Of a stretch of DNA of 43,716 nt, positions 923 through 43,428 are shown piece by piece. Below the pieces are notes generated by a model, which did not search any database, was not told the origin of the DNA, and saw only the letters and a program-made list of their open reading frames with translations. Every line of letters begins with the position of its first letter. The first letter of the stretch is position 1. Made by a program: the position numbers and the translations under genes. The stretch spans positions 1 through 43,716 of IMG/VR virus record IMGVR_UViG_3300032223_000299; one strand, given 5' to 3'. This DNA is from a virus.

Positions 923-1095
923 CAGAGATAAGCGGTCACATGGACAAGGGTCGTAAAGCAGTTGTGTATCTAGATGAAGATGCCAAGAAATATGTAGTAA
1001 AATGTACGGATACTTTTGGTGTAAATTATTCGTCAACTTTTATAACTTTACATGCAGCAGAAGATTTTGCTGAAGAATGGGTGCTAAACAAATGA
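919..1095 (+). CDS. Small hypothetical protein, 58 aa
   Basis: This short open frame begins with an ATG overlapping the gp46 stop (ATGA) and ends with a TGA overlapping the deformylase ATG. It fills the 170-base space exactly and reads as a translationally coupled gene. The product starts MTEISGHMDKGRKAVVYLDE and is mixed alpha/beta in character, with many Asp/Glu/Lys and no membrane segment or signal peptide. I do not recognise the family. The support is the double ATGA coupling and the absence of any other gene in the interval. Confidence 0.65.
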   Translation: MTEISGHMDKGRKAVVYLDEDAKKYVVKCTDTFGVNYSSTFITLHAAEDFAEEWVLNK

Positions 1096-1685
1096 GTGAA
1101 ATTCTAACAATCGATACCTCAGCCGGTATACAATCAACAGAGAAACTTGATCCTTTACCAATATATGGTGAAAATTATCCTTTATTGCTTACAGTGATGC
1201 CAGAATATACAGGGGGATTTCCTAACCCCGCATTAGTTACTTTAGCTAAACGATTAAAGATGACGATGAAATTGTATGCAGGTTTGGGTTTGTCGGCTAA
1301 TCAATGTGGGGTATCTGAACGAATGTTTGTTCTCGGTACAGATGAATTTCAACTTGTTTGTATTAACCCTAAGGTAGTAAAGAGTTCGGATAACTTGACC
1401 AAGATCAAAGAAGGTTGTCTTTCCTATCCAGGCTTATTCCTAAATATTGACAGACCAGAGTGGATCGAGATAGAATATCTAGATGAACATGGTGCAGTTA
1501 AAGAAGGTAGACTTGAGGGTATTAGTGCCCGATGTTTCTTACATGAGCTTGACCATTTGAACGGAGTGAGATATACTGATTATATTAAACCTGTTGCATT
1601 ACAAATGGCAAGAAAGAAGCAAACGAAGATAATTAAATCTATTGCAAGGAAAGCAAAAAATGAAAGATTGGCAACACGGGTATGA
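1092..1685 (+). CDS. def: Peptide deformylase
   Basis: This enzyme removes the N-formyl group from nascent polypeptides. All three metalloprotease motifs are present: GLGLSANQ (residues 64-71), EGCLS (107-111, metal-binding Cys109) and HELDHLNG (141-148, two His ligands and the catalytic Glu). At 197 aa it is the length of a normal single-domain deformylase. I chose the ATG at 1092, which overlaps the upstream stop, over an in-frame ATG at 1077 that would lie inside the preceding gene. Deformylases are known auxiliary genes of T4-like marine phages. The role inferred here is keeping up with high phage translation, by boosting or replacing host deformylase. Confidence 0.93.
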   Translation: MSEILTIDTSAGIQSTEKLDPLPIYGENYPLLLTVMPEYTGGFPNPALVTLAKRLKMTMKLYAGLGLSANQCGVSERMFVLGTDEFQLVCINPKVVKSSDNLTKIKEGCLSYPGLFLNIDRPEWIEIEYLDEHGAVKEGRLEGISARCFLHELDHLNGVRYTDYIKPVALQMARKKQTKIIKSIARKAKNERLATRV

Positions 1686-2754
1686 ACTTGAGTATCTTAA
1701 AGGACTAGCAGCCAAATATGATCATTATAATTCGTTTACCTATTCACCATTTGCACAGGTAAAGAAAAATAATATTGCAGAAGGTCTGCATAAAAAAACA
1801 CTCTATCATTTATGGGGTAATACTTTACTCAGTATCAAACATGTAAAAGCAAAAGGCAACATCACCATGCATGGCGACACTGTAATTGGTGTCAAGCAAA
1901 AAGGTGATGTTGTTTTTTCTGATATGGTTGGTGATCCAAAATATCTAGAACTTGAAATTAAAAAGTATAATCAAGATGCTTGGATGTATGTTTGGGCTGA
2001 AGATAAGTTAATGAATGACTTTGCAGTTAGTTTAAATTTCTGTAAAATAGGTCCAAAGATTACTACGTTTGGTGAAATGTATATGATTTATTACCGTGGT
2101 AAGCCAAGACAGTTTCCAAAGTTTGATATTGCTGAGTTACAAAGTATCTGCAAATTGTCTGATGTTGATTTGAAACTAATCAATAAGATTCATGATAAGT
2201 TAAATCTTTTACCTGAGTTCACCAATCACTATTCAAATTATAACAAAGGCAAATCATGGTCTGCGTTATCTCTGCGTGGTTATACTGATGACCCATCATT
2301 CATCACTAAGCCAATTGAGATGAGTGACAAATGGAAAGAAGAAAACAAAGAGATAGATTTTTGTTTGCAAGATACACCTTTGTTTGAACACTTTCCAGAA
2401 GTTCGTGAGTTGTTGAAACCTTTCGGGCAGACGTTACATCGTGTACGTTTTATGAGACTGAAACCAGGCGGTGGTGAACTAGAACGACATACCGATCAAG
2501 TTGACCCAGACTCAGGTGGTTCAATAGGTAAACTTGCACGACTTCATTTCCCCATTAAGACCAACAAAGATGTTATATTCACTGTATGTCATACTGATGG
2601 TACAGAAAGAAAAGTGCATATGAAAGAAGGTGAATGTTGGTTTTTAGATACCCGCAAACCACATCAAGCAATCAATGGTGGTACCGAAGAAAGAATCCAT
2701 TTAGTAGTTGATGTATTGACAGAGAAAGATTTACATGATAGAATTACTAAGTGA
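1660..2754 (+). CDS. 2-oxoglutarate/Fe(II) oxygenase, aspartyl/asparaginyl beta-hydroxylase-like
   Basis: The C-terminal third carries the double-stranded beta-helix facial triad of the Asp/Asn hydroxylase family: H277-T-D279, then the distal His335 in KPHQAINGG and the 2OG-binding Arg in ERIHLVVD shortly after. The first ~200 residues match no family I recognise and may give substrate specificity. The ATG at 1660 is preferred over the upstream TTG at 1642 because AGGA lies 9 bases upstream. The gene overlaps the deformylase end and the next start. It sits directly before a PLP-like enzyme and a DNA methyltransferase, so the substrate could be DNA, a protein or a small molecule. The substrate is unknown. 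Confidence 0.82.
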   Translation: MKDWQHGYELEYLKGLAAKYDHYNSFTYSPFAQVKKNNIAEGLHKKTLYHLWGNTLLSIKHVKAKGNITMHGDTVIGVKQKGDVVFSDMVGDPKYLELEIKKYNQDAWMYVWAEDKLMNDFAVSLNFCKIGPKITTFGEMYMIYYRGKPRQFPKFDIAELQSICKLSDVDLKLINKIHDKLNLLPEFTNHYSNYNKGKSWSALSLRGYTDDPSFITKPIEMSDKWKEENKEIDFCLQDTPLFEHFPEVRELLKPFGQTLHRVRFMRLKPGGGELERHTDQVDPDSGGSIGKLARLHFPIKTNKDVIFTVCHTDGTERKVHMKEGECWFLDTRKPHQAINGGTEERIHLVVDVLTEKDLHDRITK

Positions 2755-3472
2755 TTGGGAAGACCCTAATCCAAAACCGATTATTGAAATGCATAATGGG
2801 TTCTATATTGTGCGTGATGATTTATTAGAGTATGGAAGCAAAAGCAGATTCATTGATTACCTGATTAAAAGTGAAGGCAATGAGTGGGTATTTGGTGGTG
2901 CAAATAAAGTCGGTTGGGGTCCAATATCACTGACGTATGTTTGCAATCTATACAATAAAAAAGCAACATTCTTTATGGCTAAAAGAAAAGAACCCACTTG
3001 GCATCAACAAAAAGTTTTAGATATGGGTGGAACAATTCATTGGGTTGATAATGGAATGTTGAATGTAACAAAAGCAAAAGCACGTAAGTATTATGAAGAA
3101 GACCCAACGAATCGCAGAGTATTACCTTTAGGCTTAGAACATCCTTCAGTGTTAGCATCAATCGTTAAGGTTGCAAAAGGTCTAGAAGTAAAGCCAACAG
3201 AGATTTGGACAGTAGCATCGAGTGGTACACTAAACAGAGGATTGCAATTGGCGTTTCCTGAACTGCCAGTGTATGCTGTTGAGATTGGTCACAAGATGAG
3301 TGATTATGAAAAAGGTCGTGCAGTAACTATGCGTTCACCTTACAAGTATGATCAAGCAATTAAAGAAGAAGAAGCCCCACCATATCCATCAGAGAAATAC
3401 TATGATGCAAAGATATGGCCATTTGTTATTGAACACGCCAAACCTGGCGCACTAATTTGGAATGTTGCATGA
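2735..3472 (+). CDS. Probable PLP-dependent fold-type II (ACC deaminase-like) enzyme
   Basis: The 245-aa product resembles the tryptophan-synthase-beta/ACC-deaminase fold. An early YGSKSRFIDYL segment resembles the GNKxRKLEYL stretch carrying the PLP-binding Lys. VFGGANKVGWGPISLTYVC sits where the GG-QSNHAR substrate loop lies in that family. ASSGTLNRG resembles the Gly/Ser/Thr phosphate-binding loop. It is shorter than ordinary ACC deaminases (about 330 aa). It overlaps the oxygenase before it and the methyltransferase after it, so the three are probably co-translated. Fold assignment is by motif resemblance only, and the reaction is unknown. Confidence 0.45.
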   Translation: MIELLSDWEDPNPKPIIEMHNGFYIVRDDLLEYGSKSRFIDYLIKSEGNEWVFGGANKVGWGPISLTYVCNLYNKKATFFMAKRKEPTWHQQKVLDMGGTIHWVDNGMLNVTKAKARKYYEEDPTNRRVLPLGLEHPSVLASIVKVAKGLEVKPTEIWTVASSGTLNRGLQLAFPELPVYAVEIGHKMSDYEKGRAVTMRSPYKYDQAIKEEEAPPYPSEKYYDAKIWPFVIEHAKPGALIWNVA

Positions 3473-33907: not shown

Positions 33908-36253
33908 ATGAAATTTAGCGATTTTCTGCGAGAGCAGAAAGAAAAACATGCTGTATTAGCGTATGGGCGTATGAACCCCATAACTGCTGGTCACGAAAAA
34001 TTAGTCCAAAAGGTCACAGATGTGGCTGGCGCTGTTCGAGGCTCACATCAAATCGTTCTGTCACATTCACACGATTCCAAGAAAAATCCTCTATCCGTAA
34101 CACAAAAAATCAAACACGCTAAACGTGCGTTTCCTGGCGTCAATTTCAAAGCCGCATCTAAAGAAGCAGCAACGTTCTTCGATCATGCTGAAAAGCTATA
34201 TCATCAAGGCGTAACTCATCTTCATATGGTCGGTGGTTCTGACCGTGTAGAAGAATATGAAAAACTTCTAAACAAATACAACGGCACACATCCAGGTGCT
34301 CGATTCAATTTCAAATCAATCAAATTACATTCTGCTGGTCAACGTGATCCAGATGCAGAAGGCGCCACTGGCATTTCAGCAAGTAAAATGCGTGAGTTTG
34401 CTGGCAAGGGTAACTACAAAAAATTCAAACAAGGTGCTCCATCTACAATGTCGGATGAGCATGTCAAACAAATGTATAATGATGTACGCAGAGGCATGAA
34501 TCTGCATGAACAAATTCTAGCAGAAGGTGTGCATGATAAAGGTATCTTCAAAGCAGTATTCTTAGCAGGTGGTCCGGGTTCAGGTAAAGACTATGTTCTA
34601 TCAAACACACTTGATGGGCAAGGTTTAGTTGAAATTAATTCAGATAAAGCACTAGAGTATCTGATGGATAAAGAACAACTCGATAAGACGATGCCAGGTA
34701 ATGAAGCAGCACAACGAAATGCTGTTCGTAAAAAAGCAAAAGATATCACAGAGATTCGCAATCGTTTAGCACTTCAAGGTCGCAATGGTTTAATCATTAA
34801 TGGCACTGGCGATGATCCAGAAAAGTACGCTAAGATTAAAAAGAAACTTGAAGCGATGGGCTATGATACTTCAATGATTATGGTTAACACTGATGATGAA
34901 GTATCGAGACAGCGAAACATTGAACGTGGGCAACGTGGTGGACGTACTGTACCAGAAAACATTCGTAAAGAAAAATGGGAGTCTGTACAAAAAGCACGTG
35001 GCGAAATGGCAAAGATATTCCGTAACAACTATGTTGAGTTTGATAACTCTGAAGATTTGCGTCAAGCATCACCTGATGTTGTAAAAGCAAAAAAAGAAGA
35101 GATGCAACAAATCTTTAAACAAATTCAAAAGTTTGTTAATGCACCACCAAAACATGAAAACGCAAAGAATTGGATTGCTTCTGAGTTAGGTAAGAAAGAT
35201 ACTGCACCAATCAGCAAAACAGCACAACCTCATCCAAAAGCACAAACACATGGTGAAATGAACACGATGGGTCTAGAGTATTATGGCTTTGGTCGTTACG
35301 GTAAGAATGGTAAAGTAACACATCGTTCAGTGCATGATCGTTTAGTGCCTGTAGATAAGATTGCTAAGACTGTAGAAAAGCATAGAACTAAAATGGCTAA
35401 GGTTGCTGAGAAAACAAAGCCTAAAAAAGTAAACGAAGCATTTGAAGATTTCTTACAAGAAGCAGTCACAGTTACAATCACTGGTGATACAGCAGAAGAA
35501 GTCAACAAAATGTTCAAAATGCTAAAGAATGAAGGTGATGATAGAGATGATGTTGAAGAATCCGCAGAAAAGTATGGCACAACATTATCAAACAATGGTG
35601 CTATCAATGCACTGTTGCTTGGCACATCAATGATTAAAGAAGCTGTGGAGAAGAAACAAAAACTCATGCACGATAAGAATGGAAAACCAAGAGTGTTTCA
35701 TTTCCGTATGTCTGCTGCAAAAGAAGCACATCGTAACAATGGCACAGTTCATAAAGTTGGAAAAAATTACGTTGTCAAAATTAGAGAGGACTTAAATGAA
35801 ATATCTTCACCAGATAATAATTCTATTGAAGCGGTTTATGGACAAAATTTCTCCACCCCCGATGCAAAACAACTCGGTAAAGTCAGAACCGGTGTTAGAG
35901 CCTCTAAACCAGCCCTCGACAAACCAGTCTCAGAACACTGTGGATATGAAGACGGACACCCCGAAATCCAAGCCCGCAAAAAAATCACCCTCATCGACCT
36001 CAAAAAGAAAGTCAAAGAGTCCATCGACAAAGGCATAGAACCTGGTCTATCAATGGCAGGTGCTGGTGAATCACCTGCTAGAGATATGGGTGAGAAGTTG
36101 AGCAAGAAAGGTAAAGCAACACAGATTGTTCCATCTTCAATCACTGAATTGACTGGTGATGAAACTGGTGCATCTATTGGCGATCAAAAAGAAGATGAGT
36201 TGAAGAAAAAAGGTATCTCACTTACAACATTTAAAAAGAGAAACTATGTATGA
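33908..36253 (+). CDS. Multidomain late protein: nucleotidylyltransferase, P-loop kinase and further modules with protease-type cut sites
   Basis: The 781-aa protein starts MKFSDFLREQ, a capsid-targeting-like peptide (LRE-Q site). Residues 15-165 form a cytidylyltransferase-like domain (YGRMNPITAGH, a TxGH variant of HxGH, then ISASKMR). ILAE-G (203-207) lies exactly before a P-loop kinase domain with GGPGSGKD (221-228), an SRQRNIERGQRGGR region and a zeta-toxin/adenylate-kinase-like layout. FEDFLQE-A (512-519) precedes a VTVTITGD module and a basic tail. The sites between domains have the prohead-protease form (I/L)-X-E. I infer cleavage into separate enzymes inside the head. A NadR-like bifunctional enzyme is the alternative. 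Confidence 0.72.
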   Translation: MKFSDFLREQKEKHAVLAYGRMNPITAGHEKLVQKVTDVAGAVRGSHQIVLSHSHDSKKNPLSVTQKIKHAKRAFPGVNFKAASKEAATFFDHAEKLYHQGVTHLHMVGGSDRVEEYEKLLNKYNGTHPGARFNFKSIKLHSAGQRDPDAEGATGISASKMREFAGKGNYKKFKQGAPSTMSDEHVKQMYNDVRRGMNLHEQILAEGVHDKGIFKAVFLAGGPGSGKDYVLSNTLDGQGLVEINSDKALEYLMDKEQLDKTMPGNEAAQRNAVRKKAKDITEIRNRLALQGRNGLIINGTGDDPEKYAKIKKKLEAMGYDTSMIMVNTDDEVSRQRNIERGQRGGRTVPENIRKEKWESVQKARGEMAKIFRNNYVEFDNSEDLRQASPDVVKAKKEEMQQIFKQIQKFVNAPPKHENAKNWIASELGKKDTAPISKTAQPHPKAQTHGEMNTMGLEYYGFGRYGKNGKVTHRSVHDRLVPVDKIAKTVEKHRTKMAKVAEKTKPKKVNEAFEDFLQEAVTVTITGDTAEEVNKMFKMLKNEGDDRDDVEESAEKYGTTLSNNGAINALLLGTSMIKEAVEKKQKLMHDKNGKPRVFHFRMSAAKEAHRNNGTVHKVGKNYVVKIREDLNEISSPDNNSIEAVYGQNFSTPDAKQLGKVRTGVRASKPALDKPVSEHCGYEDGHPEIQARKKITLIDLKKKVKESIDKGIEPGLSMAGAGESPARDMGEKLSKKGKATQIVPSSITELTGDETGASIGDQKEDELKKKGISLTTFKKRNYV

Positions 36254-36720
36254 AATCATTTAATAAATTCTTAGATGAAGCTGGTCCTTGTTGGGCAGGA
36301 TACAAACCAGTTCCAGGTAAAAATAAATTCGAAAAAGGTTCATGTGTTAAAGAAGATGCAAACGCAGCAAAACAAGCAGCGATTGCCATTCACATGAAAC
36401 AAAAAGGAATTAAACCTAAGAACGAAGAAGTCGAACAGATTGATGAGACTGAAGCATGGCAGCGTAAAGAGGGGCAGAATCAAGAAGGTGGTTTGAATCG
36501 TAAAGGTATTGCTTCATATCGTGCAGCACATCCGGGTTCACACTTGTCGATGGCTGTAACAACAAAGCCAAGTAAATTGAAAGCTGGTTCTAAAGCAGCG
36601 AACAGACGCAAATCATTTTGTAGTCGTATGAGTGGTATGAAAAGTAAACTAACATCTGCAAAGACTGCACATGATCCAGATTCACGTATTAACAAAGCAT
36701 TAAGAAAGTGGAATTGCTAA
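36250..36720 (+). CDS. Late protein: targeting peptide, Cys module, cut-site linker, DUF6321-like domain
   Basis: The 156-aa protein begins MKSFNKFLDEA (LDE-A site, residues 8-11). A small Cys module, PCWAGYKPVPG with a later SCVKED, follows. The linker NEEVEQIDE (58-66) comes next, then a conserved basic domain (EGGLNRKGIASYRAAHPGSH, RRKSFCSRMSGMKSKL, ending ALRKWNC) that I recall as DUF6321 in marine T4-like phages. If cut at both sites it gives a Cys mini-protein and a 90-aa basic DNA-binding-like protein. The ATG overlaps the previous stop. Confidence 0.72.
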   Translation: MKSFNKFLDEAGPCWAGYKPVPGKNKFEKGSCVKEDANAAKQAAIAIHMKQKGIKPKNEEVEQIDETEAWQRKEGQNQEGGLNRKGIASYRAAHPGSHLSMAVTTKPSKLKAGSKAANRRKSFCSRMSGMKSKLTSAKTAHDPDSRINKALRKWNC

Positions 36721-37890
36721 ATGGCACAATGGCGTGGTGATACTCAAACGTTTGATCAAGCAATATCTAGAAGATATGAGGTGATGATGTTGGCTAATAA
36801 TGCCAACGGAGACATCGTATCTGCTAGTAATCCATTACCTGTAACACTAGGTTCTAGTAATATTACAATTACTGGAGATGTTAATGTAGGAACAACAGTT
36901 AATGTTGCTAGTTCTCCAGAGAATCCAGTTCATACTCATATTACAGAAGTTGGAACAAGTGGATTATTAACAGTGCCGTATTTACCAGTCGGTGGCACTG
37001 TTAATATTGGCACTATGCCAGAGGTAGAAATTAAAAACGATTCTGGTAATCCTGTACCAGTATCAGGCACAGTAGAATTAGCCAACGCAACAATAAATGC
37101 ATTAGGAATACTTTTTGATTCTTTAAATATAGGAGGACCAGTGGACAGATTAGTGACTGGAACCAAAGAAGCGATTCTTTCATCGAATGGCACATTAATA
37201 GTTCCAGGAAGTATAATACCTTCACTTAATACTGTATTTTCATTAGGCGATCAGTATCACAAGTGGGGTGATCTTTGGGTTGGTCCAAATACCATCAACA
37301 TGACAGACACAGCAACTGGTAATATCGCTGCTTTGTCTGTTACGAATGGCGTATTACAAATAGATGGTGCTAATCAGTTACAAGTAGGTCAGTTGAAGTT
37401 TGTTGATAATACAATTCAGTCTACTACTGGTAATATTACTATTCAAATTGGACAGACAGGTGATACATCCAATTTAGTATTCAATCGTAATGTAGTTACC
37501 GCCGAAGGTAAAACTATTACTGCTAATGGAGCATTCTATCCACTAAAAGGTATCACTCATCCAGTAAGATTAACAACAATACCCGCCAATACGGTTTCTA
37601 TCAATTTTGAAACCGATGAATTAATTCACATTCATACACCAGCACCCAATACAATAGTTACAGCCACAATATTAAATTTAGCAAATAATATAGGCAAAAC
37701 GATTGAAATTTGGACTATGAGTTCTGCTGGAGGCAACACACAATTCAATCATGGTGTAAATAGTTCACAAGCAACAAATGGACAATCATTTTTTCTAACA
37801 TCAAGAATTTCAATGTATATCAAATATTTCAACTTAGATGGAACTACAGGAAATCTTTTCGTAACTGCCATCGGAAATAATTTAATATAA
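36721..37890 (+). CDS. Virion structural protein, fibre/decoration-like
   Basis: The 389-aa protein is Gly/Asn/Thr/Val-rich and beta-structured, with short repeats (PVTLGSSNITITGDVNVGTT, PVSGTVELANATINALG, LFSLGDQYHKWGDLWVGP-like turns). These are typical of phage fibre or decoration shafts, and it lacks Cys and the acidic linkers of its neighbours. The N-terminus (MAQWRGDTQTFDQAISRRYE) may be the virion attachment part. It begins immediately after the previous stop. The exact virion location is unknown. Confidence 0.6.
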   Translation: MAQWRGDTQTFDQAISRRYEVMMLANNANGDIVSASNPLPVTLGSSNITITGDVNVGTTVNVASSPENPVHTHITEVGTSGLLTVPYLPVGGTVNIGTMPEVEIKNDSGNPVPVSGTVELANATINALGILFDSLNIGGPVDRLVTGTKEAILSSNGTLIVPGSIIPSLNTVFSLGDQYHKWGDLWVGPNTINMTDTATGNIAALSVTNGVLQIDGANQLQVGQLKFVDNTIQSTTGNITIQIGQTGDTSNLVFNRNVVTAEGKTITANGAFYPLKGITHPVRLTTIPANTVSINFETDELIHIHTPAPNTIVTATILNLANNIGKTIEIWTMSSAGGNTQFNHGVNSSQATNGQSFFLTSRISMYIKYFNLDGTTGNLFVTAIGNNLI

Positions 37891-37893
37891 AAA
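37886..37893 (+). promoter_or_regulatory. Late-promoter-like site
   Basis: TATAAAAA differs from the TATAAATA consensus at one position and overlaps the stop of the structural gene, 19 bases before the next start. In this AT-rich stretch it could be chance. Confidence 0.35.
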
Positions 37894-37911
37894 TAAAAAT
37901 AGGAGAATCAA

Positions 37912-39627
37912 ATGTCATTTTTAAAAGACAAATCACTAAAAGGCGTAGCAGAAGCAGTAATGAAAGTTATTGAAGCTGAACAAAAAGCAAAACAAGATTA
38001 CGACCATGATGGTAAAGTCGAAAGCCCAAAAGCTGAGTATCTTGGTTCACGCATTCGTGCTGCCAAACTTGCAGGTAAACTGAAAGAAGAAACTCAACCA
38101 GAAATGCTGAGTGAAAGTGATAAATGGATCGCTGGTGCAATCAAGAAGCCAGGTGCTTTGCATCGTAAACTTGGTGTACCTGAAGGTGAAAAGATTCCTG
38201 CTGCTAAAGTTGCAGCCGCAGCAAAAAAAGGTGGTGAGTTGGGCAAAGAAGCACGACTAGCACAAACATTAAAAAAGCTGCCACGCCATCACGGTCCACG
38301 TAACGAAGAAGTTGAACAGTTACAAGAATATGAATCCAAAAATGGTGTGTTTAAACACAAAGCCAAACTTGCTATGGGTGCAAAGTATGGTGAATCCGAC
38401 TACTCAAAAGGTGGTGAAGAAGATACCGAATCGAAAAAAGATTTAGATTATCAAAAGAAATCTAAAACTACTGGCGCTCGTCAGAACAATTTCAATCGTG
38501 GCAAGTCAACTGGTTACACTTACAAACCAAAATCTAAAGCTATGAAAGAAGATACAGAAGAAAAATTATCTTTCACAGAAATGCTACAACTGTATAATGA
38601 AGCTGGCGTAGAAGTTATTGCTAAGATTGTTCCAGAAACAGTTAAGTTTGGTGACCAAGAAGTTGAAGTTATCGACGCAGATAAAATCAATGGTGCAATC
38701 GAAACTACTGTTGTTGAAGGTGCATCGAATGACCAATTTAATGCACAACTAAAAACAGCGGAATGGAAATCAGCAACGAAAGATGATGACACTGTTAGAC
38801 CAATAAAGAAAAAAGCAGATGTTGCTGGTGCAGCCTCTCTTGGAGTCAAAATACAAAAAGAAGAAGCGGAACTTGAAGAAAGAGCAAAATGGAGAACATC
38901 TAGCATTGCTCATGACACAGGTTATCGTAAAGATGGCTATCATGGTGGTATTGAAAATACAGCCGATACTGGTAAGGAAGATTTGTTGAGAGGTCGTTCT
39001 ATGAATTCTCGATATGGATCACCAAAAAAATCTGACATAAAGGTATTGAAAAAGAGCATCACAAAAAATCTTTCTCAAATGAAAAAAGAAGAAGCGGAAC
39101 TTGAAGAAGCCAGAGGAAAAGAAATTATTTTAGATAAGCCTGCTAAACATGGCGAATTTCAAAATAGAGGTAAACAAACTGGTGGCGGACTTAGAAAACT
39201 TCAAACAGCCATTACAAAAAGAATGACTGATGACAAGCCAAAGAAAACAAACGAAGAAGTGGAACAGATTGATGAAATCTCTAAAGAGACTGCTGGTAAA
39301 TATTTGACTGCACCACAAGGTAAAGGCGCTAACAAATATAAAGTTAGTGCAGATAAAGCAAGTTATCCTGATATCGGAACAATGAATAAACATGCCACTA
39401 ATGTACGTAGAGCATTGCAGAGAAGTGATAGCAGTTCAATCTATAAAAAACCATCTTACTACAAAGAAGAAGAGCAGTTAGATGAAACATTGCCAGCAAG
39501 TGCAACAGCTGGTGATTACATCGATGATTTTGTTCATTCAAAAAATCCAAAATTTGAAGGTAAGTCTAAAGAAGAACGTAAGAAAATGGCATTAGGTGCA
39601 TTCTACGCCAAGAATAAAGGTAAGTAA
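37912..39627 (+). CDS. Modular late polyprotein D with repeated (I/L)-X-E linkers
   Basis: The 571-aa, Lys/Glu-rich protein is a chain of modules. An N-terminal region ends at LSE-S (66-69). A basic domain (KWIAGAIKKPGALHRKLG to ARLAQTLKK, about 71-122) resembles one found in many phage virion proteins. Linker NEEVEQLQE (131-139) is followed by YESKNGVFKHKAKLA, which has a copy in the next gene. EEAELEE occurs twice (317-323, 393-399). NEEVEQIDE (447-455) and EEEQLDE (519-525) bound C-terminal modules. The linkers fit prohead-protease sites. The AGGAG ribosome site is strong. Probably an internal head polyprotein. Confidence 0.7.
   Translation: MSFLKDKSLKGVAEAVMKVIEAEQKAKQDYDHDGKVESPKAEYLGSRIRAAKLAGKLKEETQPEMLSESDKWIAGAIKKPGALHRKLGVPEGEKIPAAKVAAAAKKGGELGKEARLAQTLKKLPRHHGPRNEEVEQLQEYESKNGVFKHKAKLAMGAKYGESDYSKGGEEDTESKKDLDYQKKSKTTGARQNNFNRGKSTGYTYKPKSKAMKEDTEEKLSFTEMLQLYNEAGVEVIAKIVPETVKFGDQEVEVIDADKINGAIETTVVEGASNDQFNAQLKTAEWKSATKDDDTVRPIKKKADVAGAASLGVKIQKEEAELEERAKWRTSSIAHDTGYRKDGYHGGIENTADTGKEDLLRGRSMNSRYGSPKKSDIKVLKKSITKNLSQMKKEEAELEEARGKEIILDKPAKHGEFQNRGKQTGGGLRKLQTAITKRMTDDKPKKTNEEVEQIDEISKETAGKYLTAPQGKGANKYKVSADKASYPDIGTMNKHATNVRRALQRSDSSSIYKKPSYYKEEEQLDETLPASATAGDYIDDFVHSKNPKFEGKSKEERKKMALGAFYAKNKGK
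38302..38328 (+). repeat. NEEVEQLQE linker repeat
   Basis: Codes for NEEVEQLQE, the first EEVEQ-type linker in polyprotein D, followed by the YESKNGV module. Other copies of the linker are at 36421, 39250, 39466, 39971, 40214, 40901 and 41093. Confidence 0.8.
39250..39276 (+). repeat. NEEVEQIDE linker repeat
   Basis: Codes for NEEVEQIDE, identical in protein sequence to the linker at 36421-36447 in the 156-aa gene. It separates the GLRKLQTAITKRM module from the C-terminal modules of polyprotein D. Confidence 0.8.
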
Positions 39628-39628
39628 T

Positions 39629-41824
39629 ATGGCAACGAAGAAAATGAAAATTAACTTCAAGATGCCAACACCGACTGCTGCTGAACGGCTACATGCACAG
39701 CAACAAAAGAACAGGAAGGCCGCTGGTCTTCCTGACCCTTCCGAGTATAAGAAGAAGTTGGATGCTATGAAGTCTGAAAATTACGAAGAAGATGATGGTC
39801 CACTGTCGCAAGAGCAGTTGAATGAAATTTCTGCACAACTCAAAGCATCGTATGTATCTGGTGCCAAGAAACAGATAAAACAATCTATGCCATTTACTAA
39901 AAAGAGTGATGAGTATAGAGATATTGCCAAGAACTTTATTGCCAAACGTCAAAAAGGTATTGCTAAAGCAAATGAAGAAGTTGAGCAATTGGATGAGTAT
40001 GAATCAAAAGGTGGTGTGTATAAGCACACAGCAAAACTTGCCAGCTCACATAGTTATGGTGGTGAACCAAGAAAATTGCATGATCCAGGCAGTGTTTTAC
40101 ATAAATCACAAGTAAGTCGTGATGATAAAACATTTGATATAAAATGGGGTAATGGTGCTTTATCCAAAGCACAATCAAAGAAAACTTTGATGAACGTGCA
40201 TAAGAATCTTCCAGAAGAAGTTGAACTGCTGGACGAAATGCCAGAATCAAATATGAAAGTCAGAGATGTACATTCACATTTGAAAAAAGCAGGATGGGAA
40301 CTAGCACGTAGCAAAGGTGGGCATGATGTATTCAAGCATCCAAAAGCAAAACATTCAATTCCTGTTCCACGCCATGCACTCAAAGCGCCTTTAGTTCGTG
40401 GTATTTTGAAAGCATCGAAAGTTCAAGAACAATTAGAAAAGAAAGGGCGATTCGTGTCTGGACCAATAAAACAACCATTCAAGTCCAATACTATTGTGAC
40501 TTCAGTGAAAGAAGCAAAAGATTCTCATGAGTATGATTACGAAGGAGAAATGGCACTTAATCAATTAGATACTATCATGCGTCACGCAGAGTATTTGAAA
40601 GATATGATAAAGCCAGATACTAATTTGCCTGAGTGGGTACAAGCAAAGATTACTTTGGCTACCGATTACATTCAAACTTCATGCGATTATCTGACTTCAG
40701 AAATGAATGAAGAAGTTAAGAAGAATGAATATCACATTTCGAAAAAACATAAGTTTCCTACTCCCAATGAACATGCAGTAACAGTAAAGCACACCGAAAG
40801 TGGTCGTGAGCATGTTCATAGTGGCAAAGGAAAATATCTGTCAAAATTGATTAAGACAAGATACAACATCAATCATCATTTTGAAGAAGTTGAGCATAAT
40901 GATGTTGAACAGTTAGATGAAGTTAATGTTGGCGATAAAGTCAGCTTTGACCATCCAATGACTGCTATTCCAGGTAAAACCATGAAGAAAATTGGAACAG
41001 TACATAAAATTGAAGGTGATACTGCTCATCTAAAATCTTCAACCAAGTATGGTACATTAAGATACACAAAAAAAATGAGTGAACTTAAAAAAGAAGAAGT
41101 TGAGATTGATGAAATGGTTGTTGTAAAAACCAACAAACCAATCGGAACAAGAGTTGCAGACATTGGTCCTGGTGGTAAAGAATACAACGTGAAAACTGAC
41201 AAAGCATACGATGACGCTAAAAAGAAACAACCACAAGGTGCAGAATTTGCAGCACAAAGACGCAAAGAACGACTTGCAACGAATGGTCGCATGGATGAAG
41301 GTCGTGCATCACAACGTCATCCACTAGAAGGTCATGAGTATCACAAGAAGTCTAATGAAGCATTGGTTCACATTGCCAAAGATGCACATGCGGCTGCTGA
41401 AGCAATGAAGAGTCACAATCCACAAGCAGAAAACAAATATCGTGACCAAGCAAATGATTCTGCAACTGTTAGATACTTCCGTCAAAAGAATGGTATGCCT
41501 GACTGGTACAAAAAGAAATACGGTCATGTCAAAGAAGAAGTTGAAATGGCTGAAGATGCTGATCCATGCTGGAAAGGTTACAAGATGGTCGGTTTCAAAA
41601 ACAAGAATGGTCGTAAAGTACCAAATTGTGTTCCAGGCGAAGGTGTTCCAGCGATGAAGAAAGAATCTGCTGAAGACCCATCAGAAGGTGAAATGAAAGA
41701 TAAACAAAGCTATTCCCGCAAAGCACAAATTGTAAGAAATGCTGCTGGAAAAGGTAAGAAATCAGACAATCCAGATAAGTTTCAGAAAGACCCTGAGTTG
41801 TCAAGTGAAATTCATAAGACTTAA
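39629..41824 (+). CDS. Modular late polyprotein E with HicA-like domain
   Basis: The 731-aa protein is a chain of modules separated by (I/L)-X-E sites: LNE-I (64-66), LDE-Y (121-123), LDE-M (201-203), LDE-V (429-431), IDE-M (493-495) and a weaker MAE-D (640-642). Modules in order: YESKGGVYKHTAKLA (paralogue of one in polyprotein D); a HicA-like domain (206-268, GGHDVFKHP with His232); a YEGEMALNQLDTIMRHAEYL domain recurring in marine phage proteins; a KOW-like VNVGDKVSFDHPM part; a HPLEGHEYHKKSNEAL basic domain (565-630); and a Cys-pair module (PCWKGY to NCVPG). The ATG at 39629 follows AAAGG; the upstream in-frame start at 39596 lies within the previous gene. Confidence 0.72.
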   Translation: MATKKMKINFKMPTPTAAERLHAQQQKNRKAAGLPDPSEYKKKLDAMKSENYEEDDGPLSQEQLNEISAQLKASYVSGAKKQIKQSMPFTKKSDEYRDIAKNFIAKRQKGIAKANEEVEQLDEYESKGGVYKHTAKLASSHSYGGEPRKLHDPGSVLHKSQVSRDDKTFDIKWGNGALSKAQSKKTLMNVHKNLPEEVELLDEMPESNMKVRDVHSHLKKAGWELARSKGGHDVFKHPKAKHSIPVPRHALKAPLVRGILKASKVQEQLEKKGRFVSGPIKQPFKSNTIVTSVKEAKDSHEYDYEGEMALNQLDTIMRHAEYLKDMIKPDTNLPEWVQAKITLATDYIQTSCDYLTSEMNEEVKKNEYHISKKHKFPTPNEHAVTVKHTESGREHVHSGKGKYLSKLIKTRYNINHHFEEVEHNDVEQLDEVNVGDKVSFDHPMTAIPGKTMKKIGTVHKIEGDTAHLKSSTKYGTLRYTKKMSELKKEEVEIDEMVVVKTNKPIGTRVADIGPGGKEYNVKTDKAYDDAKKKQPQGAEFAAQRRKERLATNGRMDEGRASQRHPLEGHEYHKKSNEALVHIAKDAHAAAEAMKSHNPQAENKYRDQANDSATVRYFRQKNGMPDWYKKKYGHVKEEVEMAEDADPCWKGYKMVGFKNKNGRKVPNCVPGEGVPAMKKESAEDPSEGEMKDKQSYSRKAQIVRNAAGKGKKSDNPDKFQKDPELSSEIHKT
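39971..39997 (+). repeat. NEEVEQLDE linker repeat
   Basis: Codes for NEEVEQLDE in polyprotein E and is followed by the YESKGGV module, mirroring the linker-module order at 38302-38376 in polyprotein D. The linker and module were therefore duplicated together. Confidence 0.8.
40244..40432 (+). other. Segment coding for the HicA-like domain
   Basis: Residues 206-268 of polyprotein E follow the HicA toxin layout: a first helix VRDVHSHLKKAGWE, strand ELARSKG, the GGHDVFKHP catalytic-His turn, a basic strand IPVPRH and a final helix APLVRGILKASKV. HicA proteins are double-stranded-RNA-binding-fold mRNA interferases. No HicB antitoxin is seen in the window. Confidence 0.7.
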
Positions 41825-42449: not shown

Positions 42450-42809
42450 ATGAACTTTAAAAGTTATCTCCAAAGTCATGTTGAGAAATCTCCGTTTTCT
42501 GACCCACAAGTCAGAGCGGAGATTAATCGTGCTTTAGAAGCGGAGATAGATAGTACAGTTATGATGACACCAGAAGGCGGCGTTCAACGAATGCGGAAAG
42601 TTCTATCACGTTACAGTATAGATTTTCCTGCATTTGAAGATTTAGATACAGATGGTGATGAAAGCATTTATGAATTAGATGCAAACGTTTATCTGTATTT
42701 CATTTATTATCTCACCGATGATGGTAATTACGAATTCCATGCTGAAATCACAGACGATGAAGGTATAGAAGAAATTCTGTCGGATGTGGAGGAAGATTCC
42801 GAGGAATAA
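42450..42809 (+). CDS. Acidic hypothetical protein, 119 aa
   Basis: This late protein starts MNFKSYLQSHVEKSPFSDPQ, reminiscent of the targeting-like peptides of neighbouring genes but without the acidic cleavage residue. The remainder is strongly acidic (EEILSDVEEDSEE end), with a hydrophobic VYLYFIYYLTDDG stretch. It overlaps the next gene by one base. Function unknown; a scaffold or assembly role is only a guess from acidity and place. Confidence 0.65.
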   Translation: MNFKSYLQSHVEKSPFSDPQVRAEINRALEAEIDSTVMMTPEGGVQRMRKVLSRYSIDFPAFEDLDTDGDESIYELDANVYLYFIYYLTDDGNYEFHAEITDDEGIEEILSDVEEDSEE

Positions 42810-43201
42810 TGTATTTTGATAATTTGAGTGATGAGAATGTCATAATGTATGCAGTAAAAGCATATGACAAACCAAATTGTATAATGAGTGAGTTTACTGA
42901 AGATATGAAGCGATTGAATTATCTAAAGCGTTTATTCCGTAGGTATCGTAAACATGGTGAGATGCGTGAGCGCCTCATTCTAAATCATATTGTAGTATTA
43001 AACAATCTGTTTGGACCAGAAGTCACAACCAGATTGTTATTTTTTCGTATGTCAAAAGATGATTACAGTATATTGAAAACATATTTGGTATTTTTAAGCC
43101 TGATGCCCGAAAGAATTTATGGTATCAATGGTAAAGATATTATATCATCAGATATTCAAATTGATATGAAAATAGCAGAAGAACTTAGAAAAATAAAATG
43201 A
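42809..43201 (+). CDS. Conserved phage protein of unknown function, 130 aa
   Basis: The protein (start MYFDNLSDENVIMYAVKAYD) is helical and basic in its middle (RLNYLKRLFRRYRKHGEMRERLILNH), followed by hydrophobic helices. I recall similar proteins at this position in marine T4-like phages, near tail/head genes, without known function. It overlaps its neighbours at both ends (TAATG and ATGA). Confidence 0.7.
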   Translation: MYFDNLSDENVIMYAVKAYDKPNCIMSEFTEDMKRLNYLKRLFRRYRKHGEMRERLILNHIVVLNNLFGPEVTTRLLFFRMSKDDYSILKTYLVFLSLMPERIYGINGKDIISSDIQIDMKIAEELRKIK

Positions 43202-43428
43202 GCAACGAATTCAAAAAACAATGTGGTGCTGGATACTATTGGTGTTCTACTGATAAAGTCTGCAAACCACTTCAAGAAGATGGAATGGCAGGTGGTGCTC
43301 CCACCAATGCCGTGGGTGGTGGTGCAATTGCTGGTTTGGGTGTTGGTTCAAAGGGTGAGCCTGGCGTGAGAAAAAAGCCAGCATCATTCATCGCATACAT
43401 GAATCGAAGGATGCCTAAAATATCATGA
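43198..43428 (+). CDS. Small late protein with Cys motif and Gly-rich tail
   Basis: The 76-aa protein begins with three Cys in KQCGAGYYWCSTDKVCKPL, similar in style to the Cys modules of the 156-aa and polyprotein E genes. It contains a LQE-D site of prohead-protease form, then a Gly-rich GGAPTNAVGGGAIAGLGVG stretch that recurs in phage virion-associated proteins. Function unknown. Confidence 0.65.
   Translation: MSNEFKKQCGAGYYWCSTDKVCKPLQEDGMAGGAPTNAVGGGAIAGLGVGSKGEPGVRKKPASFIAYMNRRMPKIS

Follow-up and report, generated by a model that had tools for sequence, protein, structure and literature searches.

Do T4-like phages load polyproteins into the prohead, to be cut there into many separate cargo proteins? 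The question is raised by a 43.7-kb virus contig, which was analysed over its whole length (the window). It is a fragment of a T4-like genome, with a replication block that encodes the sliding clamp, clamp loaders, RegA, Hsp20, DNA polymerase, UvsX and helicase. On the 3′ side of this block lie, in order, ORF A, ORF B, a fibre-like gene (36721-37890) that carries no linker, ORF C, ORF D, a short structural-type gene, a DUF7207 gene and ORF E (Table 1). Ahead of the block, at 1077-3472, a peptide deformylase gene and a threonine dehydratase-like gene were observed. A sequence-only reading of the window had described four ORFs of 781, 156, 571 and 731 aa, whose coordinates and lengths we confirmed, as strings of modules joined by acidic linkers with the cleavage signature of the T4 prohead protease gp21. 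The start of D was set at the ATG at 39629, as in the relative L087, and not at the GTG at 39596. No T4 late promoter (TATAAATA) was found near the module-protein genes of the window.

Table 1. Features of the module-protein region (positions in the window; arrows mark the putative cleavage position).
Feature	Position	Strand	Description or basis
ORF A, 781 aa	33908..36253	+	nucleotidyltransferase (NMNAT/cytidylyltransferase-like), then P-loop kinase (Zeta/AAA_33); C-terminal half poorly ordered
T4-like capsid targeting start of A, MKFSDFLRE↓Q	33908..33934	+	sequence
Conserved L-A-E of A (ILAE↓GVHDK)	34517..34525	+	joint of two folded domains; relatives and model
ORF B, 156 aa	36250..36720	+	targeting start MKSFNKFLDE↓A, CWxGY module, linker, DUF6321
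Linker EEVEQIDE↓ in B	36424..36447	+	directly before DUF6321; motif scan
DUF6321 module (PF19846) of B	36448..36717	+	domain match, residues 76-154, 1.4e-17
ORF C, 571 aa	37912..39627	+	module string, five linkers, other N-terminus MSFLKDKSLKGVAEAVMKVIEAE
Linker EEVEQLQE↓ in C	38305..38328	+	motif scan
Linker EEAELEE↓ in C, first copy	38860..38880	+	motif scan
Linker EEAELEE↓ in C, second copy	39088..39108	+	motif scan
Linker EEVEQIDE↓ in C	39253..39276	+	motif scan
Linker EEEQLDE↓ in C	39466..39486	+	motif scan
ORF D, 731 aa	39629..41824	+	module string, five linkers
Linker EEVEQLDE↓ in D	39974..39997	+	motif scan
Linker EEVELLDE↓ in D	40214..40237	+	directly before HicA; motif scan
HicA mRNA-interferase-like module (PF07927) of D	40238..40426	+	residues 207-266, 1.8e-10
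Linker DVEQLDE↓ in D	40901..40921	+	motif scan
Linker EEVEIDE↓ in D	41093..41113	+	motif scan
M-D-E of D	41291..41299	+	directly before GRASQRH module; phase as VLEE↓, ELDE↓, VLSE↓, TLKE↓ in relatives
Linker EEVEMAE↓ in D	41534..41554	+	before CWxGY module; motif scan
DUF7207 gene	42809..43201	+	synteny marker of virion-protein slot; domain match
ORF E, 76 aa	43198..43428	+	GYYWCxTDKxCK module, LQE↓, APTNAVGGG tail

The motif scan returned 11 octamers of the EEVEQ(I/L)DE type or variants of it, one in B and five each in C and D; in shuffles of the same proteins, at most 0.0002 were expected for each. B, C and D are the only window ORFs with the tight linker motif, and a nucleotide pattern likewise matches these three only. 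The acidic linkers described earlier are thus present in B, C and D and absent from A, which has only plain [IL]xE triplets and had been overcounted as a linker string. All linkers end in (I/L)-X-E, as had been claimed, apart from the last one of D, which ends in M-A-E. The frequency of bare [IL]xE does not exceed chance in A, C and D (7-10 seen, about 6 expected), and the argument therefore has to rest on the octamer and on comparison with relatives.

Cargo with a targeting sequence, and gp21 itself, are textbook T4. In the targeting start of A, [ILMVF]xE is kept in 13 of 16 relatives. A structure model of A, for which 21 rows were aligned, shows two domains with confidence, at residues ~10-200 and 211-425 (pLDDT about 90 and 85). 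The L-A-E at residues 204-206, kept in 5/5 aligned relatives and 6/6 module contexts, falls within the disordered segment 201-210 that links both domains, and those [IL]xE triplets that the domains themselves contain (163, 242, 282) sit in helices or strands. Comparison with solved structures matched the domains to nucleotidyltransferases and to polynucleotide/adenylate-kinase folds; on account of the latter, the Pfam label "Zeta toxin" was read as a P-loop kinase of unassigned substrate. One may speculate that an NMNAT-like activity of A restores NAD+. Residues 444-497 of A are homologous to a module of the virion protein S-CREM2 gp14, where it directly follows the targeting start.

Several effector-type domains per chain were found: two folded enzyme domains in A, HicA together with other modules in D, and DUF6321 in B. 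The expectation that sites fall between recognisable domains holds for DUF6321, for HicA and for A with its two domains; for most of the remaining modules, no known domain was matched. Structure prediction places the L-A-E of A in a disordered joint; for D, a model built from the sequence alone (pLDDT 45) is too poor to place linkers. The HicA module of D keeps its GGH motif in the alignment, and no HicB partner was recognised in a search covering all but some small window ORFs. A HicA without HicB would fit, as a speculation, a toxin kept in its precursor until delivery. Both C and D are net basic in composition, and both lack a canonical T4-type targeting start, having other N-termini. Domain searches revealed no peptidase families in A-D, and a tblastn search with C against named phages gave zero matches.

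IMG/VR was then scanned with the linker pattern, which gave at least 120 stretches with at least 133 linker-bearing ORFs of up to 1431 aa. Since loci fetched in this way are enriched for linkers, the analysis of phase rests on module anchors, that is, module starts located by their own sequence and independently of the linker, and on contexts without the linker pattern. With the linkers masked, local homologies ended at linkers 425 and 471 times, against 137±29 and 142±29 at random, among the matches listed. This is three times the random value (z about 10), and none of 300 shuffles of these matches reached the observed count. Equal decoy masks left a smaller yet clear effect, with 80% stops at linkers versus 61% at decoys, among the matches listed. 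Module shuffling at linkers, for which the sequence-only reading had proposed to compare relatives, is thus seen. Two weak matches in linker-bearing proteins were noted: one to intein splicing in the 1431-aa polyprotein (L052:1939-6231, residues 873-1027), and one to the RNA-polymerase-binding domain of SutA (L090:10577-12883, residues 153-176), a hint, at the level of sequence similarity, of transcription-directed cargo.

As another reading, linkers might be recombination seeds or fusion scars at the DNA level, with no role in the protein. Linkers on the same contig share 76% of their codons, against 58% predicted by codon usage, among the matches listed, which makes DNA exchange or duplication at linkers plausible. 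The peptide is kept, however, although about a quarter of the codons differ synonymously, and the phase and the P1/P3 pattern described below persist behind unrelated upstream sequence. We consider a purely DNA-level origin very improbable.

Among the matches listed, [ILVMF]xE stands immediately before the kinase module in 6/6 contexts, the GRxSQR module in 5/5, the YESKxG module in 4/4, HicA in 2/2 and the SKxTLxSY module in 42/43, and 0-1 aa before DUF6321 in 11/11. CWxGY modules are looser: of their 38 contexts among the matches listed, only 25 have [ILVMF]xE within 6 aa. The background frequency of [IL]xE is 0.9%. In 26 contexts that have no EEVEQ part, again among the matches listed, the only constant features are Glu at P1 (96%; the DUF6321 patterns among these contexts required a Glu) and Leu/Ile at P3 (84%). 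Furthermore, one and the same module is found preceded by a linker in one phage and immediately by a T4-like targeting start in another, as in MKSFKQFINEEVINEA↓TPAWQR of L083 and MIKFNEYTVLEE↓GRPSQRH of L058. Modules directly behind such a start are DUF6321 (L083, L086 and L049), GRPSQRH (L058) and CWxGY (L046 and L108).

As a control, DUF6321 was followed into cultured phages. In 11 T4-like isolates with gp21 (S77), a Glu directly precedes the module in 11/11, and in phages without S77 (Pelagibacter and Prochlorococcus podoviruses and a Planktothrix phage) the module begins at the gene's own start, leaderless, in 6/6; the isolates are related to one another, and neither count is made of independent cases. 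P3 before DUF6321 is I/L in only 3/11 of the cultured marine cyanophages and another residue in 8/11. Judged by sequence, marine isolates follow a rule that fixes Glu at P1 and leaves P3 loose. A first query with ORF B, mostly DUF6321, matched 518 named phage records, podoviruses included; podovirus DUF6321 stands alone, and in two podoviruses it adjoins capsid genes.

These observations bear on the possibility that the proteins are packaged but stay uncut, as multidomain virion proteins whose modules work joined by flexible acidic spacers. Polyvalent proteins, with 2 to 15 domains and delivered with DNA, are described (PMC5512222). A sequence such as EEVEQIDE could plausibly act as a flexible spacer, and if the spacer is constant, this alone makes the phase constant. 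Such a spacer fits poorly with a P1 Glu and P3 Leu/Ile that persist where the acidic stretch is lost and all else varies, with the interchange of linker and targeting start before the same module, and with a DUF6321 that is leaderless in phages without gp21. It is unlikely, in our view, that the chains remain uncut.

Cleavage at the linkers, which we favour, calls for a protease. T4 gp21 cuts after L/I-x-E, and the 10-residue targeting sequence ends at such a Glu (PMC9026906). Peptidase_S77/gp21 (PF03420) was present in 11/30 linker-bearing fragments, and in 6/8 of those above 70 kb, and gp23 in 10/30, all among the matches listed; a gp21-type protease is encoded by 15/15 T4-like isolates checked. 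It was not found within the window fragment. In 8/8 major capsid proteins from linker-bearing genomes among the matches listed, the N-terminal propeptide ends with L-x-E. Phase, the equivalence of linker and targeting start, the coupling with gp21 and the capsid sites thus argue for cutting at linkers, as had been proposed; the P3 residues of the cultured marine cyanophages speak against it.

Three further observations concern capsid-like sequence. Short proteins or tails in which [ILVMF]xE is followed by (A)PTNxVGGGxIAG occur in the window (43198-43428) and in L021, L034, L043, L057 and L063, and resemble the start of the mature major capsid protein (LxE..APTN). The virion proteins S-CREM2 gp160 and S-SCSM1 gp97 contain a capsid-protein-like GFTGxxAxEGPxAGYDPLM stretch. 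The 256-kb contig of L067 (G016) has partial gp23 matches at 222213-222356 and 223390-223542, besides an intact gp23 at 148016.

T4-like targeting starts are not commoner in linker-bearing proteins (12/117) than in neighbouring ORFs (69/860; p 0.38), among the matches listed, because the neighbours carry such starts too; both frequencies are above those of shuffles. Two other N-termini recur on linker proteins, among the matches listed in L005-L124: DKxxKxVAxAVxKIMxE (11/117 versus 5/860 other ORFs) and LxEAYxxVY (10/117 versus 1/860), the latter also present in S-SCSM1 gp89. Both patterns were defined after inspection of the data, and their enrichment is only a lead; from their sequence, they are possible alternative targeting signals.

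Evidence on packaging comes from cultured relatives. The window and cyanophages share the gene order phrog_455 gene, cytidylyltransferase, module proteins, DUF7207. ORF A matches S-SCSM1 gp91, S-SZBM1 gp140 and S-CREM2 gp154 (7e-31, 9e-30 and 2e-21), and the DUF7207 and phrog_455 genes of the window also match their cyanophage counterparts. Published mass spectrometry of virions detected gp154, 155, 156 and 160 and the distant gp6 and gp12-15 of S-CREM2, with co-purification considered possible by the authors (PMC10665884), gp136, 139 and 140 of S-SZBM1 (PMC9146016), and gp89-93, 95 and 97 of S-SCSM1, whose record marks them as virion proteins (PMC9602691). Two of the latter carry a linker, gp92 (NKEEVELDE↓R) and gp89 (KKEEVENVDE↓R), and gp91 has the T4-like targeting start MKSFLQFLKE↓A. 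The strict EEVEQ motif is absent from S-CREM2 and S-SZBM1. In S-CREM2, virion proteins account for 5/6 genes with a T4-like targeting start versus 47/213 others (p 0.003); S-SZBM1 is weaker, as gp191 and gp192 have T4-like starts yet were not detected in virions. Packaging, as proposed earlier, is backed indirectly by synteny and homology with virion proteins of three cyanophages and by the targeting starts on A and B.

Packaged and cut proteins might also be disposable core proteins, cut to clear the head for DNA, with modules that are structural filler. T4 core proteins such as gp22 and gp67 are cut into many fragments that are mostly removed (PMC9026906), and linker-bearing proteins have high contents of Lys+Arg (19.6%) and Asp+Glu (16%), among the matches listed. 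Filler would not be expected to show enzyme and toxin folds whose motifs are conserved (HicA, kinase, nucleotidyltransferase) or to have relatives detected in mature virions, and the net basic C and D resemble the T4 internal proteins that stay. A disposable role is therefore doubtful, with a chance that we rate as small.

We conclude that A-D are probably T4-type internal head proteins, and B, C and D modular polyproteins that gp21 cuts at the linkers. B, C and D would be precursor chains of small, mostly basic modules joined by acidic linkers ending in L/I-x-E. A chain would enter the prohead core by its T4-type targeting start (A and B) or by another N-terminal element (C and D), and gp21 would cleave it at the linkers, after Glu, during capsid maturation. 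The freed modules would stay associated with the DNA and reach the host on infection, where those with a recognisable fold (HicA mRNA interferase, P-loop kinase and NMNAT-like enzyme) suggest host take-over. Of these steps, packaging in the head is probable, with good though indirect support from sequence comparison. Cutting in this phage, the targeting of C and D and retention of the pieces are inferred from sequence, injection with the DNA would follow by analogy with T4, and the modules may act in host take-over. The head-packaged, cut cargo system first proposed is thus partly supported, with the exceptions that A is no linker string and that a canonical targeting start is missing from C and D.

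The closest known system is that of the T4 internal proteins (IPI, IPII, IPIII and Alt). Common to both are basic or enzymatic cargo, a gp21-type protease (here in relatives), virion-located relatives and an N-terminal 10-residue targeting sequence ending in L/I-x-E, here on A and B. The T4 proteins, however, each consist of one propeptide and one mature protein (Alt has also a C-terminal propeptide), whereas here cleavage at internal sites would release several products from one precursor, and modules are shuffled. T4 gp22 and gp67 are also cut by gp21 into several fragments, some of which stay in the head, but they are scaffold proteins, in which enzyme or toxin modules are not strung together and shuffled. 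Polyvalent proteins share the many effector-like domains per DNA-delivered chain, and their authors themselves draw the polyprotein analogy; in the available portion of that paper, release is ascribed to embedded peptidases, and no linker repeat for a separate prohead protease is described (PMC5512222). An embedded peptidase is a feature of many polyvalent proteins, not of all, and is absent in A-D. The ejection proteins of the giant phage SPN3US have a gp21-related protease and several cleavage sites per protein, but these sites lie in removed propeptides and the motif is A-x-E (PMC10052503). The virion NMNAT/cytidylyltransferases of S-SCSM1, S-SZBM1 and S-CREM2 are homologous to domain 1 of A, occupy the same slot and have a T4-like targeting start, but the reports present them as single enzymes and describe no processing.

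In the open-licence literature, a text search for EEVEQ in phages returned no phage paper, prohead protease combined with polyprotein gave only the polyvalent-protein paper as relevant (PMC5512222), and shuffled effector-module polyproteins with repeated prohead-protease sites were not found. Targeting-sequence cargo of T4, gp21 and multi-fragment cutting of core proteins are already known; the polyprotein form is apparently new within that literature.

For uncultivated T4-like phages at large, we lean, by a modest margin over an even chance, towards a general system of modular cargo: polyproteins of up to ~1,400 aa whose modules are swapped at gp21-cleavable linkers, such that one targeting event loads many effectors, HicA-like toxins included. 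If true, the capsid maturation protease would double as a polyprotein processor, and a large class of "hypothetical" virion-linked proteins of T4-like phages, in at least 120 stretches with the linker, would be explained. Head-packaged effectors could then be sought by a sequence rule, and the T4 protein-delivery platform would gain natural examples of how several cargoes are loaded together.
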